64,000 bases of DNA from NCBI RefSeq assembly GCF_004768545.1, contig NZ_CP038635.1, positions 2,976,001 through 3,040,000 on the forward strand. Direction: 5' to 3'. Made by a program: the position numbers and the translations under genes. This stretch comes from Cupriavidus oxalaticus. Its GTDB lineage: Bacteria; Pseudomonadota; Gammaproteobacteria; Burkholderiales; Burkholderiaceae. The notes beneath the pieces are model-generated. The model worked only from the letters and a program-made list of their open reading frames with translations. It had not been told where the DNA came from and searched no databases. Shown here in pieces: positions 14,881 to 20,699 of the stretch (position 1 is its first letter; each line of letters begins with the position of its first letter).

Positions 14881-16212
14881 TTACTCCGCGCGCGGCAGGT
14901 CGAAGCTGAACGCGGCCCACTGCCCCAGCTCGCTCTCGGCGAAGAGCTGGCCGCCATGGCGCTCGATCACCGCGTAGCTGATCGACAGCCCCAGCCCCAG
15001 GCCCTGCCCCACGTCGCGCGTGGTGAAGAAGGGCTCGAACACGCGCGCCAGGTTTTCCTCGGCGATGCCGGGGCCATTGTCGCGCACCGTGACGTGGAGC
15101 CGGCCGTCGGCCCAGCGCACCGTGGTATGGATCGCCGGCGCGGCCGTGCCGGCCTTGCGCATGGCCAGCGCGGCGTTGGAGAACAGGTTGATCAGCACGC
15201 CGATGACCGCGGCCTCGTCGCCCAGCACCAGCGTGTCGGCCGGCAGCTCGCGCGTCACCTTGACGCCGCGCAGCTCGTGCGCGGTCAGGCGGATCGAGGA
15301 ATCCAGCGCCTTCTCGAACAGGAACGGCGTGCCCTCCACCTCCGCACCCGGCTTGCGGTAGGCGAAGGTCTTCAGGTCGGACACGATATGCTGGATGCGC
15401 TGCATGCCCTGCTTGGCATCGACCAGGCATTCGGTCAGCGACTCGCTCTCCTTGGCCTGCGGCTCTTCCATCGCCACCTCGATCGCCATCAGGCAGAAGT
15501 TGACCGGGTTGTTGACCTCGTGCAGCAGCCCGGCCGCCAGCGTACCGATCGCGGCCATCTTTTCCTGCTGCAGCATCTGGCCCTTGATGTCGACCAGCTT
15601 GCGGTTGATGACTTCCAGCTCGGCGTTGGTCTCGGCCACCTCCGCCTTCAGCCGGAACAGCATGAAACGCGCGCGCTCGTTGAAGAAGGTATAGACGCCG
15701 CTGGCGGCGGCCGCGAATAGCAGGAACAGCGAGTTGACGATAAACGTCCCCATCGGCTCGATGCCCCCTGCGTGGAACAGGCACGCCAGCACGTACAGCA
15801 GGTAGGAAAGCAGACCGAAGACCAGGTTCTGCCACAGCCCGAACGGCAGCGCGATGCCCGAGGCGAAGATCGCCAGGTTCAGGCCGACGTAGTAAGGCGA
15901 CTGCACGCCTTCGGTCTGCGAGATCATCCACGCGATCATGATCTGCGGCAGCAGCAGCCAGGTCAGCGTCAGCCACGGCGCAAACCGGCGCCCGATCGCG
16001 CTGTACAGCATCACCACCACGCCCGCGATCAGCAGCGACACCACCACGCGCGCCACTGCGAACGCCAGCTGTTGCTGCGGATACTGGCCGTAGTCAAGCC
16101 CGACGCCGAGCAGGACCAGCACGATCGCGGTATAGGCGCCGCCGCGGCTGAACGCCAGGCGGAAGTCGGCCAGTTCGGACTGGTAACCGGCGTAGAGTTG
16201 GTTGGTGCTCAT
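14881..16212 (-). CDS. phcS: Quorum-sensing sensor histidine kinase PhcS
   Basis: 443-residue membrane kinase with about five to six hydrophobic segments (about 25-40, 50-70, 80-98, 108-125, 130-148, 157-175), a short coiled coil (185-215), a HisKA phospho-site H231 in LLHEVNNPVNF and an HATPase domain ending in DNGPGIA and GLGLGLSIS. It should sense the PhcB-made ester in or near the membrane. Start ATG 16212; a longer reading from a TTG at 16257 overlaps phcB and is not preferred. It lies 22 nt after phcB in the operon. Confidence 0.9.
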   Translation of the reverse strand: MSTNQLYAGYQSELADFRLAFSRGGAYTAIVLVLLGVGLDYGQYPQQQLAFAVARVVVSLLIAGVVVMLYSAIGRRFAPWLTLTWLLLPQIMIAWMISQTEGVQSPYYVGLNLAIFASGIALPFGLWQNLVFGLLSYLLYVLACLFHAGGIEPMGTFIVNSLFLLFAAAASGVYTFFNERARFMLFRLKAEVAETNAELEVINRKLVDIKGQMLQQEKMAAIGTLAAGLLHEVNNPVNFCLMAIEVAMEEPQAKESESLTECLVDAKQGMQRIQHIVSDLKTFAYRKPGAEVEGTPFLFEKALDSSIRLTAHELRGVKVTRELPADTLVLGDEAAVIGVLINLFSNAALAMRKAGTAAPAIHTTVRWADGRLHVTVRDNGPGIAEENLARVFEPFFTTRDVGQGLGLGLSISYAVIERHGGQLFAESELGQWAAFSFDLPRAE

Positions 16213-16234
16213 GGGGTGGTCCGCGCGGACAGCC

Positions 16235-17626
16235 TCATTCAATGGTGGCTTCGGCAAAGACGTTGACGCCGGTGGCGTCGACGTAGATGCGGTGCGAGTG
16301 CGAATTCTCCGGCAGCAGCTGCGCCATGCCGGCGTCGTCGCGGTAGATCAGGTACCACTCCAGCAGGTGCTCCATGCCGAATTTCTCTGGATTGTTGGCA
16401 TGCACGTTGGTGACCAGCACCTGGCCGGCCGCACGCGAACGCGAGGCGAAATACGCCAGCAGCCGCGTGCAGACCTTGTCCGACAGGTAATCGAACAGCC
16501 CCGCGCAGTAGACCGCGTCGAACTCCCGGGCACTGATATCGTCAGGCGAGATGCGGCGCTTGAGCAGATCGTGCACCGACTGGTGCACCATCTCCACCGA
16601 CACCTTGCGCCCGGCGCCAGAGGCCGCCCGCTCGATCGAACTGCGCGTGTATTCCAGCGTTTCTTCACTGAAGTCGACCAGCTGGAACGACAGCAGCTCG
16701 GGATTGGGATACTCCCGCACGAAGCGCTGGATCTCGAAGGCTGGCCCGCAACCCACGTTGAGCACGCGGAACGGGCGGCCGGCGGCGCGCGCGCGCTCGG
16801 CCTGGCGCGTCAGGAAATCCACCAGCAGGTCGATGCGGTTGCGGTGCGCGGTCGCCACCGCCGCCTTCAGGAAGGCGGTGTTGACGATCTGGAAGTAAGT
16901 GGTCGGGCCCTGCTGCGGATCGCTCAGGATCTGGTTGACCATCTCGTAGTCGCCGGCGTAGCCGAGCGGCTTGGTGAAGGTCCGGTACACGAACGGCGCG
17001 CGCAGCAGCAGCGGGTGCAGCGCCGACTGGGCATAGGTGCGGTGCACCGGCGCGATTTCCGGGTCCACGCGCTCGGCCTCGCCCTCGAGCCAGTCAAGGT
17101 AGGTCTTGGTCTTGACCATGATCGGCGTGGCCAGCTCGTAGAACACGTCCTCGCGCAGCTTGCCGTCCTTCTTCGGCAGCGATTCGGTCAGGTCGACCTG
17201 CTCGACCCAGCGCGATACTTCGGACAGGAAGGCGCGCATTTCGTTGACCACGATCTGGTAGTCGCGCCGGATATTGAAGCGCGTATCCCAGTCCTGCACG
17301 AACAGCTCGGCTTCGCGTGCCACCGACTTGGGCTCGTTGTTCAGGTCGGTCAGCTCGCGCCACTCGTCGATCAGCGTCAGCGATACCACCGCGGTCAGGC
17401 CGGTATTCACCAGGCTCATCACCACGGCCTTGCCCAGGTAGGCATTCTTGGCGCCCATGCGGACACTGAGCTCGCTCAGCACCTCGCTGACCTGCACGAT
17501 CGAATACGGATTGTAGATTTCCATCACCAGAGACTTTCTCTGGAGATTGATGATCGTGCCCCGCACCTGCTCGCCCTGCGAGTTGCGGAAACTAACTACC
17601 GGATCGATTTGCGTTTTGGAATACAC
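16235..17626 (-). CDS. phcB: SAM-dependent methyltransferase, quorum signal synthase PhcB
   Basis: 463 residues. The C-terminal part (about 285-463) is a class I methyltransferase with motif I VLNVGCGPAFEI (G292-A296). In Ralstonia PhcB makes a 3-hydroxy fatty acid methyl ester autoinducer by methylating the fatty acid. The N-terminal 90 residues (VSFRNSQGEQVRGTIINLQR onward) look like a beta-barrel, possibly PilZ-like but without the RxxxR motif. The start is a GTG (17626) with no clear ribosome site. It is first in the phcBSRQ operon; the predicted promoter is about 220 nt upstream, with an IS element beyond it. Confidence 0.9.
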   Translation of the reverse strand: MYSKTQIDPVVSFRNSQGEQVRGTIINLQRKSLVMEIYNPYSIVQVSEVLSELSVRMGAKNAYLGKAVVMSLVNTGLTAVVSLTLIDEWRELTDLNNEPKSVAREAELFVQDWDTRFNIRRDYQIVVNEMRAFLSEVSRWVEQVDLTESLPKKDGKLREDVFYELATPIMVKTKTYLDWLEGEAERVDPEIAPVHRTYAQSALHPLLLRAPFVYRTFTKPLGYAGDYEMVNQILSDPQQGPTTYFQIVNTAFLKAAVATAHRNRIDLLVDFLTRQAERARAAGRPFRVLNVGCGPAFEIQRFVREYPNPELLSFQLVDFSEETLEYTRSSIERAASGAGRKVSVEMVHQSVHDLLKRRISPDDISAREFDAVYCAGLFDYLSDKVCTRLLAYFASRSRAAGQVLVTNVHANNPEKFGMEHLLEWYLIYRDDAGMAQLLPENSHSHRIYVDATGVNVFAEATIE

Positions 17627-17848
17627 GGTATTGCGCCAGGGAAATCCGAGAAACGCTGCGGGCCATACTGCCTGGGCGGAACGGCCGGGTACAGCAGGAG
17701 GGGCGAGGGAATCGCGGGGAAGGCTACCGGTATCGGGATGTGCAGCGAATGCTCATAGGGATGCGCTATAGCCTGTTGGGAGGGTGGCGGTCCCGCCCTG
17801 TGCGGGAGAGCACCGACAAGCCCGGATCGTGTGGAATTGCCGCGGCCC

Positions 17849-17878
17849 ATTGTACTGTGGCAATTGCGGCGCGTACAA
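17849..17878 (-). promoter_or_regulatory. Predicted phcB promoter
   Basis: On the minus strand TTGTAC (17878-17873) is followed after 18 nt by TACAAT (17854-17849). The -10 is 5/6, the -35 only 3/6, so an activator may be needed. The transcript would start near 17842 and run about 215 nt to the GTG of phcB. Confidence 0.4.
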
Positions 17879-17946
17879 CCAAGTGCCTTTCCGTCCCCTC
17901 TTGCGGCGGGATCGGCTACAGGATACCCAAAACCATGAAAAAAGGC

Positions 17947-17958
17947 CGGCGATCGCCG
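17947..17958. repeat. Left target-site duplication of the IS4-type element
   Basis: CGGCGATCGCCG, identical to 19368-19379. It is itself a perfect palindrome, being the centre of a terminator stem that was duplicated on insertion. The 11-13 bp duplication length is typical of IS4-subgroup elements. Confidence 0.9.
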
Positions 17959-17967
17959 TAATGCCGT

Positions 17968-19284
17968 TCAGTTAAGGTCCTTTCTGAGGAACCGGACGGT
18001 GTAGCGCTTAGGCAGGGCTTTGACTTCACGGGGGCACTTACGCCCCCGTCGCTTTTGGACGATCGCCAACTGAAGTTTGGCGCGCATGCGCTGCAGGTGG
18101 GCCGGCAGCTTGCCTGGGGCCATGCCGGCTGCCCAGATCAACTCGCCCTGTATCAGGCGCAAGGCCAGCACAAAGCTCAAGTCGGTGGGCTCGGCGCGGG
18201 CCTCGAGCGCAGCCTTGGCCATCTCCAGACGCACCAGGTTGTACGCAATCAGTGCCCCCCAGATTTCCTGATGCACGCCCTCAGGCTGGCGGCTGCGCAA
18301 GGTCAGTTCGGCCCCGAGCATCGTCTGCTTCAGTTCCCGATAGCTGGTTTCGATTTCCCAACGGCGCTTGTAGCACCCAATGATGTCGGCTGCCTTGAAG
18401 CGCCGACGGTCTGTCAACGAGGTCAACAGGACGCGGTCTGAGTCCTCGTCCCGGATCGCGCGAGCTGTCCAAGTCTCTGGCAAGGCAGGATTCTTGCGGC
18501 GAGCCTGAGGCGAGACCTTCATCTGGACGATGCCATCGCCCTCGTTGCCTGAGAGCAACTCCCACTGCAGATTCTTCTTAGCGGGGATCAGGAAGTGGCG
18601 CTCGCTGCCGCCCATGCGCAAGCCCCACAGGATCTCTGCGGCCAGAAAGCCCTTGTCAAAGATCGTTAACGAATGATCCGGGATCCGCTCAATGAGCTCC
18701 TTGGCATAGAGCATCTCGTTGCGCCCATAGCAGCCAAAGGCGATATCGGCAACAAGATGGGTGGGAACAGCCGTGAGCGAGACCCCGCGGACTTGTGGAT
18801 AGCTGGCGACCTTGCCGCTGGCGTAGCTCTGCGCGCCAAAGTGGAGGCGATTCTCAGGGCTATCGGCAGTGCGGAAGGTGGTCCCATCCATGGCGTAAAG
18901 CGCCAAGCCCTTCCATTTGTAGTGCGCAGCATCCTGAGCCACCCACGCCCGTGCGGTCTGCTCGAACAGCCACAACAGAGGCTTGTCTCCAAGCCGCTCG
19001 CGGGCTTGGGCGATCCCGCTCTTGCTGACACAGGCGTTGGCATCGTTGGGCAGTGCCAGGTCCAGCGTCTCCAGCACATCGGGAATCGATTGGTGCCGAT
19101 AGAGCGCCAGCGCGATGACCAGCCAGACCACCTGCTCTGCTGGCAGTCGGCGCCGGCGAACGGACGCTGTCCCCGAGGCTGCCAGCGCTTGCTCAATCCA
19201 AGCCATCGGCAGGTGCTCGCTGAGCCGGGCAAAACTGGCCGGCTCACTAAGCTCAAGGGTGGCGTGGACTTGTTCCGATAGCAT
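17968..19284 (-). CDS. IS4 family transposase
   Basis: 438-residue DDE transposase. Catalytic residues: D133 in YAMDGTTF, D210 in LTIFDKGF, and the YREK signature Y305-(2)-R308-(3)-E312-(6)-K319 in YKRRWEIETSYRELK, which identifies IS4 family members. The N-terminal part (about 1-100) is the DNA-binding region. The stop codon lies inside the left terminal repeat (TGA at 17968-17970), leaving almost no 3' noncoding DNA. Frame and length are intact. Confidence 0.95.
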   Translation of the reverse strand: MLSEQVHATLELSEPASFARLSEHLPMAWIEQALAASGTASVRRRRLPAEQVVWLVIALALYRHQSIPDVLETLDLALPNDANACVSKSGIAQARERLGDKPLLWLFEQTARAWVAQDAAHYKWKGLALYAMDGTTFRTADSPENRLHFGAQSYASGKVASYPQVRGVSLTAVPTHLVADIAFGCYGRNEMLYAKELIERIPDHSLTIFDKGFLAAEILWGLRMGGSERHFLIPAKKNLQWELLSGNEGDGIVQMKVSPQARRKNPALPETWTARAIRDEDSDRVLLTSLTDRRRFKAADIIGCYKRRWEIETSYRELKQTMLGAELTLRSRQPEGVHQEIWGALIAYNLVRLEMAKAALEARAEPTDLSFVLALRLIQGELIWAAGMAPGKLPAHLQRMRAKLQLAIVQKRRGRKCPREVKALPKRYTVRFLRKDLN

Positions 19285-19337
19285 CGGAACGGCAAGTTAA
19301 CAGCTCGACACCTTGTTTACAACCCCTGCAAAGAAAA

Positions 19338-19366
19338 ATGCCGTTCAGACTTAACTGAACGGCATT
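19338..19366 (-). terminator. Hairpin at the transposase-proximal IS end, terminator-like
   Basis: An internal copy of the terminal repeat lies in inverted orientation 6 nt from the terminus. Read leftward it forms an 11-bp stem ATGCCGTTCAG / CTGAACGGCAT with loop TTAAGT, followed by TTTTTC. It lies upstream of the transposase in the path of readthrough from yceI. Such hairpins protect IS10/IS50-type elements from external transcription; here it may also terminate yceI. Confidence 0.6.
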
Positions 19367-19367
19367 A

Positions 19368-19379
19368 CGGCGATCGCCG
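19368..19379. repeat. Right target-site duplication of the IS4-type element
   Basis: CGGCGATCGCCG, identical to 17947-17958. It joins GGCCTTTTG on the right, the other half of the interrupted terminator. Joining the two flanks rebuilds a 26-bp perfect palindrome with A and T tracts on either side. Confidence 0.9.
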
Positions 19380-19434
19380 GCCTTTTGTCGCTTCATGTGA
19401 GCGGCCCCTGCGGAGCCAGCCCATGGGCGCGCTC

Positions 19435-20025
19435 TTACTCGGCGCGCACGCCTTCCACCTGGATGGCGAGCTTGACTTCGGGCTTGAAGCCCATCTTCAC
19501 GCCGTAGTCCAGGCCGAAATCGGCGCGGTTGAACTCGCCCACGGCGTCGGCGCCGCAGGCTTCGCGCTTGAGCATCGGGTGCTGGATGCACTTGAACTCG
19601 CGGATTTCCAGCTTGACCGGCTTGGACACGCCGCGCAGCGTCAGCACGCCGTCGACTTCGGTCGGCACGTCGCCCTTGAACTTGCTGAACTTGCCCTTGT
19701 AGGTCGCCTCGGGGAAGGCTTCCACGTTGAACATGTCCGGGCCCTTGGCGTGCTGGTTCAGCTTGGCATTGCCGAAATCGATCGAGGACGGATCGATCTT
19801 GACCTCGACGGTACCGGCCTTGGCGGCACGATCCAGCGTGACGGTGCCGCTGGACTTGTCGAACTTGCCGCGCCACGTCGACAGGCCGCCCAGGTGGTCG
19901 GCCTCGAAGCTCGGGTAGGTATGGGTCGGATCGAGGTTGTACGTCACGGTATTGGCCGAAGCCACGCCGAAGGCGGCGGTTGCGGAAATGGCCGCGACGG
20001 CGGCAACGACGGAACGCAGTTTCAT
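19435..20025 (-). CDS. yceI: YceI family periplasmic lipid-binding protein
   Basis: 196 residues with a Sec signal peptide (cleavage near ASANT, about residue 25) and the YceI beta-barrel, which binds long-chain isoprenoids such as polyprenyl or quinone-like lipids. Conserved features include [20 protein letters not shown] and the [12 protein letters not shown] segment with two Cys. ATG 20025 has GGGAGA upstream; the reading from 20040 is less likely. It is the last gene of a b561-yceI-yceI string and lost its own terminator to the IS. Confidence 0.9.
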
Positions 20026-20111
20026 GGGATCTCCCGACAAAATCAGGTTAAACAGGTTAAGCGGAACGTTCTTGATTATTAACGTCCTGGTACGTCAGCG
20101 GATTGCCGGCC

Positions 20112-20699
20112 TTACTTCCTGGCCTGCACGATACGGAACTTGATCTGGACATCGTCGGCCACCACCGACGTGTCCTTCCACTCGCCGTCGCCGATATTGA
20201 AGACGGTGCGCTTGATCGGCAGCGCGCCCTCGAACACCTGGCTGGCGCCTTCCTGGCGGTAGGTGGCCGGCACCACCACGTCGACGGTCTTGCCCTTGAT
20301 GGTCAGCTTGCCGGCGACGTCGTACTTGCCCGGCGTGCCGTTCTTGATGCTGGTGGACTGGAACACGGCCTTGGGGTACTTGGCCGCGTCGAACCAGTCC
20401 TTGCCCTTCACTTCCTTGGTGGTCTCGGCATCGCCGATCTCGAAGCTGGCGACGTCGATCTCGACCTTGGCCGACGAGGTGGCCAGCTTGGCGGGATCGA
20501 AACTGACCTGCGCGTCGAACTTCCTGAACTTGCCTTCCATCGGCACGCCGATCTGGCGCGCCACGGCGGTCACCGAGCTCTTGGCCGCGTCGACCTGGGC
20601 CCAGGCCAGGTTGGCGGCGATGCCGGCGGCGGCCAGCACGGCTGCCACGGTGGCGTTGAGGGCCAGCGAGCCGCGGCGGGAATGGCGATTCATCTTCAA
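20112..20699 (-). CDS. YceI family periplasmic protein, second paralogue
   Basis: 195 residues with a signal peptide (ATVAAVLAAAGIAANLAWA, cleaved about residue 34) and a YceI beta-barrel: GKFRKFDAQVSFDPAKL, IDVASFEIGDAETTKEVKG, KGKTVDVVVPATYRQEG. It diverges clearly from the next gene, so it is an old duplication. It lies between cytochrome b561 and the other yceI on the same strand. A shared function in redox or isoprenoid handling in the periplasm is an inference from the b561 neighbour. Confidence 0.88.
   Translation of the reverse strand: MKMNRHSRRGSLALNATVAAVLAAAGIAANLAWAQVDAAKSSVTAVARQIGVPMEGKFRKFDAQVSFDPAKLATSSAKVEIDVASFEIGDAETTKEVKGKDWFDAAKYPKAVFQSTSIKNGTPGKYDVAGKLTIKGKTVDVVVPATYRQEGASQVFEGALPIKRTVFNIGDGEWKDTSVVADDVQIKFRIVQARK

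Follow-up and report, generated by a model that had tools for sequence, protein, structure and literature searches.

IS4 is a long-known insertion sequence. The subgroup that includes Escherichia coli IS4 is described as having ends of the form -AATR--------WTW, a length of 1,400–1,650 bp and target duplications of 10–13 bp (De Palmenaer et al. 2008, PMC2266710, Table 1), and section 6 of the same article presents the target preference of IS4 as conserved arms only. A term search of the main text of that article gave no occurrence of 'terminator', and neither dyad centring nor a carried entry-end hairpin was found in that text. Insertion at the axis of a palindrome is described for REP-targeting insertion sequences, such as ISRm22 of the IS4 family (Tobes and Pareja 2006, PMC1525189); these hit a repeated REP sequence, whereas the element described here has a different terminator as its target each time. 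Group IIC introns (PMC3522654) are mobile elements that home to Rho-independent terminators, but they are retroelements that insert downstream of the hairpin, whereas the present element is a DDE transposon that inserts inside it. Neither the ribozyme nor the reverse transcriptase of a group IIC intron is apparent here, the long open reading frame (ORF) being that of a DDE transposase. Shielding of transposase genes from outside transcription is an established idea for other insertion sequences, some of which carry 5′ terminators (Naville and Gautheret 2010, PMC2965389). The present element likewise has a terminator-like structure upstream of its transposase gene, but builds it from the terminal repeat, and the relevant passages of that article are silent on the targeting of host terminators. 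Among the matches listed from titles and abstract openings of open-licence PMC papers, none reported IS4 elements that target terminators.

We analysed a stretch of 64,000 nucleotides from Cupriavidus oxalaticus (contig NZ_CP038635.1, positions 2,976,001 to 3,040,000; called the window, whose numbering is used throughout), in which an insertion sequence separates a yceI-like gene from a methyltransferase gene. We provisionally take the latter to be phcB, and its surroundings to be the phc operon, from protein domains and gene order. The reading that we favour, with a probability of roughly 0.85, is that this is a terminator-homing element of the IS4 subgroup that splits a host terminator and brings a hairpin of its own, the phcB site being one instance. 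The features of the locus are as follows.

14881–16257, strand not given: histidine-kinase ORF overlapping the end of the phcB-like gene (ORF and domain)
16235–17626, minus strand: methyltransferase gene, phcB by position (Pfam Methyltransf_25)
17847–17886, no strand: conserved block upstream of the phcB-like gene, a possible control region, intact after the insertion (29 relatives)
17938–17946, no strand: left half of the split host terminator, an A6 tract (T6 on the yceI strand) and the arm GGC (direct reading)
17947–17958, no strand: target duplication, copy 1, CGGCGATCGCCG, a perfect palindrome (direct reading)
17959–19367, minus strand: IS4-subgroup insertion sequence, 1,409 bp (18-bp perfect repeats, open transposase frame, 12-bp duplication)
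17959–17976, plus strand: terminal inverted repeat at the transposase 3′ (exit) end, 18 bp, perfect, TAATGCCGTTCAGTTAAG
17968–19284, minus strand: transposase, a single ORF of 438 amino acids, open throughout (Pfam Nterm_IS4 and DDE_Tnp_1; NCBIfam IS4_1 equivalog)
19337–19366, minus strand: terminator-like hairpin in which the terminal repeat pairs with its subterminal inverted copy (12 pairs, loop of 6), then a T-rich tail (generic scan)
19350–19367, minus strand: terminal inverted repeat at the transposase 5′ (entry) end, 18 bp, perfect, TAATGCCGTTCAGTTAAG
19368–19379, no strand: target duplication, copy 2, CGGCGATCGCCG (direct reading)
19380–19386, no strand: right half of the split host terminator, the arm GCC and T4 (direct reading)
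19435–20040, minus strand: yceI-like gene, owner of the targeted terminator (Pfam YceI)

A preliminary description of this DNA had noted 18-bp ends, a palindromic 12-bp duplication and an intact transposase, all of which are present on direct reading; the interval 17947–19379 comprises the element with both duplications, so that the borders of the element itself are now drawn more sharply. The same description had called the element IS4-type, which is borne out by the end signature, size and duplication length of the subgroup and by traits of the family, namely a single-ORF transposase and a duplication near one helix turn. The DDE residues D133, D210 and E312 are invariant in a 21-row alignment, their spacings of 76 and 101 fit the family pattern D(60-110)D(100-150)E, and the Y(2)R(3)E(6)K motif reads YKRRWEIETSYRELK in the translation. 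The element thus resembles the subgroup of E. coli IS4 in ends, size, DDE and YREK residues and duplication length. Excision and integration by its own transposase would be expected of a subgroup member and are putative here. The transposase profile gave no match to solved structures at E 0.001.

When the two flanks are joined, a 26-bp perfect palindrome, AAAA-GGC-[CGGCGATCGCCG]-GCC-TTTT, is rebuilt. Read on the yceI strand, this site forms a GC hairpin of 7 bp (−15.2 kcal/mol) with T6 after it. Two yceI-like genes adjoin in tandem on the far side (window 19435–20699). The phcB-like locus was found in all 60 genomes searched, this one included, and 29 of the 59 relatives were examined. All 29 have a gap of 345–437 bp between the phcB-like and yceI genes that lacks the element and its repeat, and 26 of them hold a terminator-like hairpin there, whose sequence varies while its pairing is kept. 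The host target therefore has the attributes of an intrinsic terminator (a GC hairpin, a T-tract and retention in relatives). Because close relatives hold an uninterrupted terminator at the same place, the rebuilt terminator is not a product of chance, and the earlier proposal of an insertion into the yceI terminator stands.

The insertion also appears to be recent, since six full copies in this genome differ by only 0–5 bases; one more copy is 98% identical, and there are fragments besides. A simple, recent event had been proposed before, with the proviso that relatives sharing the same element at the same place would speak against it; the near-identical copies and the empty site in 29 of 29 relatives agree with the proposal. 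In a DNA search of the genus, 17 of 60 genomes gave matches, of which many were short; a class-level pattern search matched 3 of 369 genomes and an order-level search 2 of 399, the last two counts including this genome.

All six own copies with perfect ends carry a 12-bp duplication, and their six targets differ in sequence, yet five of the six reconstructed sites resemble GC hairpins between A and T tracts. For three further own copies, the two joined flanks were aligned to some of the returned relatives. Alignments that crossed the junction were obtained for L002 in 1 of 4 relatives, for L006 in 7 of 8 and for L004 in 3 of 4. None of these eleven loci has the element's repeat, and by eye there is a hairpin at the junction. 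These comparisons bear on the idea that the element, and not its target, supplies the A-tract, hairpin and T-tract. Such tracts and hairpins do flank most copies, but the flank sequences differ between copies and, for four own copies, the empty site in relatives holds an unbroken terminator (some relatives being unalignable through the junction), which leaves that idea with next to no probability.

For a wider view of targets, copies in other genomes were collected by a protein search of 299 family genomes, 25 of which had a match (for named-genome loci, the best 80 of 140), and were supplemented from an order-level search, viral contigs, E. coli K-12 and plasmids (six of at least 60 hits, with L187 later dropped). 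Element ends were set by repeat and duplication, blind to target symmetry. This yielded 69 distinct sites, 46 of them in a core clade of at least 50% identity, and 66 further transposase-match loci were left out for contig-end truncation, decay or lack of a duplication. Five elements without a duplication (L100, L102, L137, L148 and L149) have ends that adjoin, by eye, halves of apparently two different terminators, which suggests recombination between copies. A site was called a terminator if it held an ungapped stem that had at least four GC pairs and a midpoint no more than 1 bp from that of the duplication, followed by at least four T in five positions, on either strand. The first version of this rule gave 47 of 69 and missed long stems that extend into the tracts; it was revised once, and version 2 was frozen ahead of the hold-out scoring, which ran in the same script. 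Counts refer to distinct sites, although the elements are partly dependent and seven core sites hold copies from this genome.

Under the frozen rule, 52 of the 69 sites are intrinsic terminators, compared with 109 of 27,597 random positions from the same loci. The calls comprise 41 of 46 core-clade sites, 4 of 4 sites of small non-coding elements that share these repeats, 7 of 14 sites of distant relatives and 0 of 5 sites of a subclade with variant repeats. Five core sites fail: L198 (in this genome), L147 and L152 are non-terminators by eye, and L040 and L076 resemble terminators but escape the rule. Among hold-out elements, all five new transposase-bearing ones pass, including one of double length (L298), as do 6 of 7 small elements of Chromobacterium amazonense, whereas 0 of 6 small elements of Collimonas silvisoli do. 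One-sided insertions in two multi-copy genomes pass in 12 of 13 cases (19 of 20 flanks; control 339 of 27,598). Seven further one-sided rows (L287, L299, L264, L269, L271, L275 and L276) pass without exception, with L271 duplicating L313 and L287 duplicating the site of L138, and the single repeats L190 and L191 from other genomes fail. One-sided rows from viral contigs pass in 25 of 50 cases, many of them the same site repeated. The preliminary description had made the phc location its main point and the terminator incidental. This order is now reversed: terminators are the target, 6 of the 7 full-length copies in this genome lie in one by the frozen rule, and on these sequence comparisons the phcB insertion is one instance of a general habit.

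At the core sites, a search within 10 bp placed the best dyad no more than 1 bp from the duplication centre in 43 of 46 cases. In the 36 of 46 core sites where a simple home-made gene call identified both neighbours, these are, in raw counts, convergent at 22, tandem at 12 and divergent at 2; a convergent setting is as would be expected for shared two-way terminators. Convergent neighbours are also the least costly setting, as would follow if insertion were unselective and survivors were found in terminators because no gene had been harmed. Selection alone can neither centre the duplication on a hairpin axis to within 1 bp nor require A/T tracts at a fixed distance, and we consider this explanation very improbable. 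The transposase showed no preferred orientation with respect to the terminator, either by the T-rich right side (larger at 32 sites, smaller at 20, equal at 13; p 0.13) or at tandem sites (4 co-directional, 8 opposite; p 0.39), and the idea that the element inserts as the last gene of an upstream operon was therefore dropped.

E. coli IS4 itself has a similar but looser preference. Twelve of at least 60 hits (2,739 records), a non-random set chosen for multi-copy strains, gave eight distinct sites, five of which are terminators by the rule, including those after adhE and between crr and pdxK. A control on IS4 flanks, which are partly redundant, called 2 of 9,445 positions. The other three sites, that of K-12 among them, are non-terminators that retain A/T flanks.

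Such sites raise the question of whether the transposase reads only an A-tract and a T-tract at fixed spacing (AAA-N about 18-20-TTT), terminators being the commonest such layout in GC-rich genomes. The three non-terminator IS4 sites and the six Collimonas sites all have A-rich and T-rich flanks, and in the 69-site profile no positions are stronger than those of the A/T tracts. Indeed, when cores were shuffled and tracts kept, the rule still fired in 1,019 of 6,900 cases. Nevertheless, at a tract score of at least 9, 28 of 30 real core sites have a dyad, compared with only 25 of 72 among background sites that combine such a score with a GC-rich core (Fisher 2e-8), even though this background includes the yceI terminator of 29 relatives, which inflates its dyad count. 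The hairpin thus adds to the tracts at high tract score; at weak tract score a dyad is found in 10 of 16 core sites. Furthermore, paired positions covary between sites: across 38 core sites with a 12-bp duplication, 197 of 266 pairs are Watson–Crick, compared with 138 ± 6.5 for permuted partners (maximum 160 in 5,000). Reading of the tracts alone is accordingly an unlikely account, albeit the strongest competitor to terminator homing, and since Collimonas and 3 of 8 IS4 sites lack the dyad, the tracts may be primary and the hairpin secondary in some lineages.

How a dyad could be recognized is a separate matter. Because complementarity is favoured while the paired bases vary, the most likely route, at about even odds, is that the transposase senses the dyad as a DNA structure, such as an extruded hairpin or cruciform. 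Symmetric base contacts by a dimer are a more tentative candidate, and coupling to terminating RNA polymerase is less probable still.

In addition to breaking a terminator, the element carries a hairpin at its entry end that reads inward and faces transcription from yceI. Its predicted stability (−18.6 kcal/mol) exceeds that of the broken host hairpin. A generic terminator scan alone is no evidence, since it reports 2 sites in the 2-kb focal region against 1.4 in shuffled sequence. The comparison across elements is more telling: the entry-end hairpin occurs at 45 of 46 core sites and a counterpart at the opposite end at none, compared with 53 of 1,380 random 75-mers, where counts are again of sites and seven of the 46 hold own-genome copies. 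The 14 distant sites, six of which are copies of E. coli IS4, have no entry-end hairpin; 11 have an inward hairpin at the exit end, which starts in the repeat in 8. The five variant-repeat sites, four from one species, have no hairpin at either end, and among the four small elements, whose orientation is arbitrary, two have one at one end and one at the other. In 41 of 46 core sites a motif, TTGTAAAC, occurs within 90 bp of the transposase 5′ end, immediately interior to the carried hairpin. Its focal counterpart falls in window 19300–19367 and is a possible promoter or regulator site.

These features can be assembled into the following model. The transposase would pick intrinsic terminators, mostly symmetric ones between convergent genes, in which a GC-rich dyad is flanked by an A-tract and a T-tract. 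Judging from position, two cuts about 6 bp either side of the hairpin axis would give a duplication of 11–13 bp that contains the loop and inner stem, and insertion would split the host terminator. The entry-end hairpin, formed by the element's own repeat with its subterminal inverted copy and followed by T's, is predicted to terminate transcription arriving from the upstream gene; we infer that it thereby replaces the lost terminator, restoring the end of that gene, and shields the transposase from outside transcription. At the exit end, the duplicated inner hairpin and the host T-tract are predicted to form a weakened terminator for the transposase transcript. A stronger version, in which the GGC of the repeat regenerates a full terminator at the exit, is predicted for the focal copy but is not general. 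Exit junctions reach −6 kcal/mol in 34 of 47 cases against 42% of shuffled controls, and their energies overlap those of the controls (median −7.2 versus −5.5).

What the insertion means for the phcB-like gene can be judged from the same elements. In Ralstonia, insertion sequences in phcA are stated to alter behaviour (PMC10433421), so that the general concern about phc changes voiced in the preliminary description was reasonable. It had also placed the insertion near a predicted phcB promoter. The element lies 60–70 bp beyond the conserved block at 17847–17886, where the mean identity of 29 relatives to this genome is 0.86 and 0.74, falling to 0.44 and 0.28 over the two 20-bp blocks that follow; the promoter itself is unconfirmed, because a consensus scan of 17500–19500 found no sigma-70-like site. 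With the host terminator split and the transposase pointing at the phcB-like gene, transposase transcription might enter the operon, or yceI transcription might read through, and quorum sensing might be altered. We regard such an effect as quite unlikely: the entry-end hairpin faces yceI transcription, a weaker hairpin (−8.4 kcal/mol) with T6 remains at the exit towards the phcB-like gene, the conserved upstream block is intact and the site is of the type that the element generally targets. Read-through of the transposase transcript into the phcB-like gene is possible on this layout, and changed phcB expression would be possible too, but is not the outcome we favour.

The variant-repeat elements (L135, L136, L144, L154 and L140, from Massilia cavernae and a Duganella) are inserted in GGGTCAGACC-like palindromes. 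Matches to CGGGGTCAGACC number 68 in M. cavernae, in clusters and both orientations, 6 in Duganella OV510 and 0 in this genome. The sequence looks like a REP family, and the variant subclade in M. cavernae resembles the REP-targeting case. In a tree without the Massilia proteins, the core clade includes the transposase L140 of the Duganella (support 96/90), on a long branch and with its placement flagged as unsure. If this placement holds, the terminator target and the carried hairpin may have been lost together in this subclade.

The hairpin-free subclade in REP-like palindromes and the opposite-end hairpin of E. coli IS4 would fit a co-evolution of target choice and hairpin. We lean slightly towards a broader proposal, in which a widespread class of DDE elements would use terminators as a safe harbour, directed by structure to the hairpin axis and swapping the broken terminator for a repeat-built one, with target and hairpin evolving together. 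A terminator-hairpin target, if real, would explain both the conserved arms of IS4 targets and the tolerance of insertions, would predict new insertions and would provide an example, open to experiment, of a DDE transposase with a preference for targets with base-pairing symmetry. It would also illustrate how mobile elements could replace transcription terminators without obvious phenotype, and a carried hairpin resembling a stop signal may make insertions nearly harmless. Across Proteobacteria, such elements would also reset where convergent genes end at the 3′ side and how far transcription reads through between them.

Small non-coding elements of 114–191 bp with the same terminal repeats (L280–L286, L193, L204, L227 and L050) were also observed, most of those examined lying in terminators. 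C. amazonense has 23 and 24 repeat matches on its two strands. The Collimonas elements (L288–L293) have 12-bp duplications and A/T-rich flanks with no dyad by the rule, and are possibly moved by a transposase with looser targeting. Finally, L298 spans 3,673 bp, with intact repeats 3,273 bp apart and a duplication around a transposase and further ORFs, and represents either a nested insertion or passenger genes.
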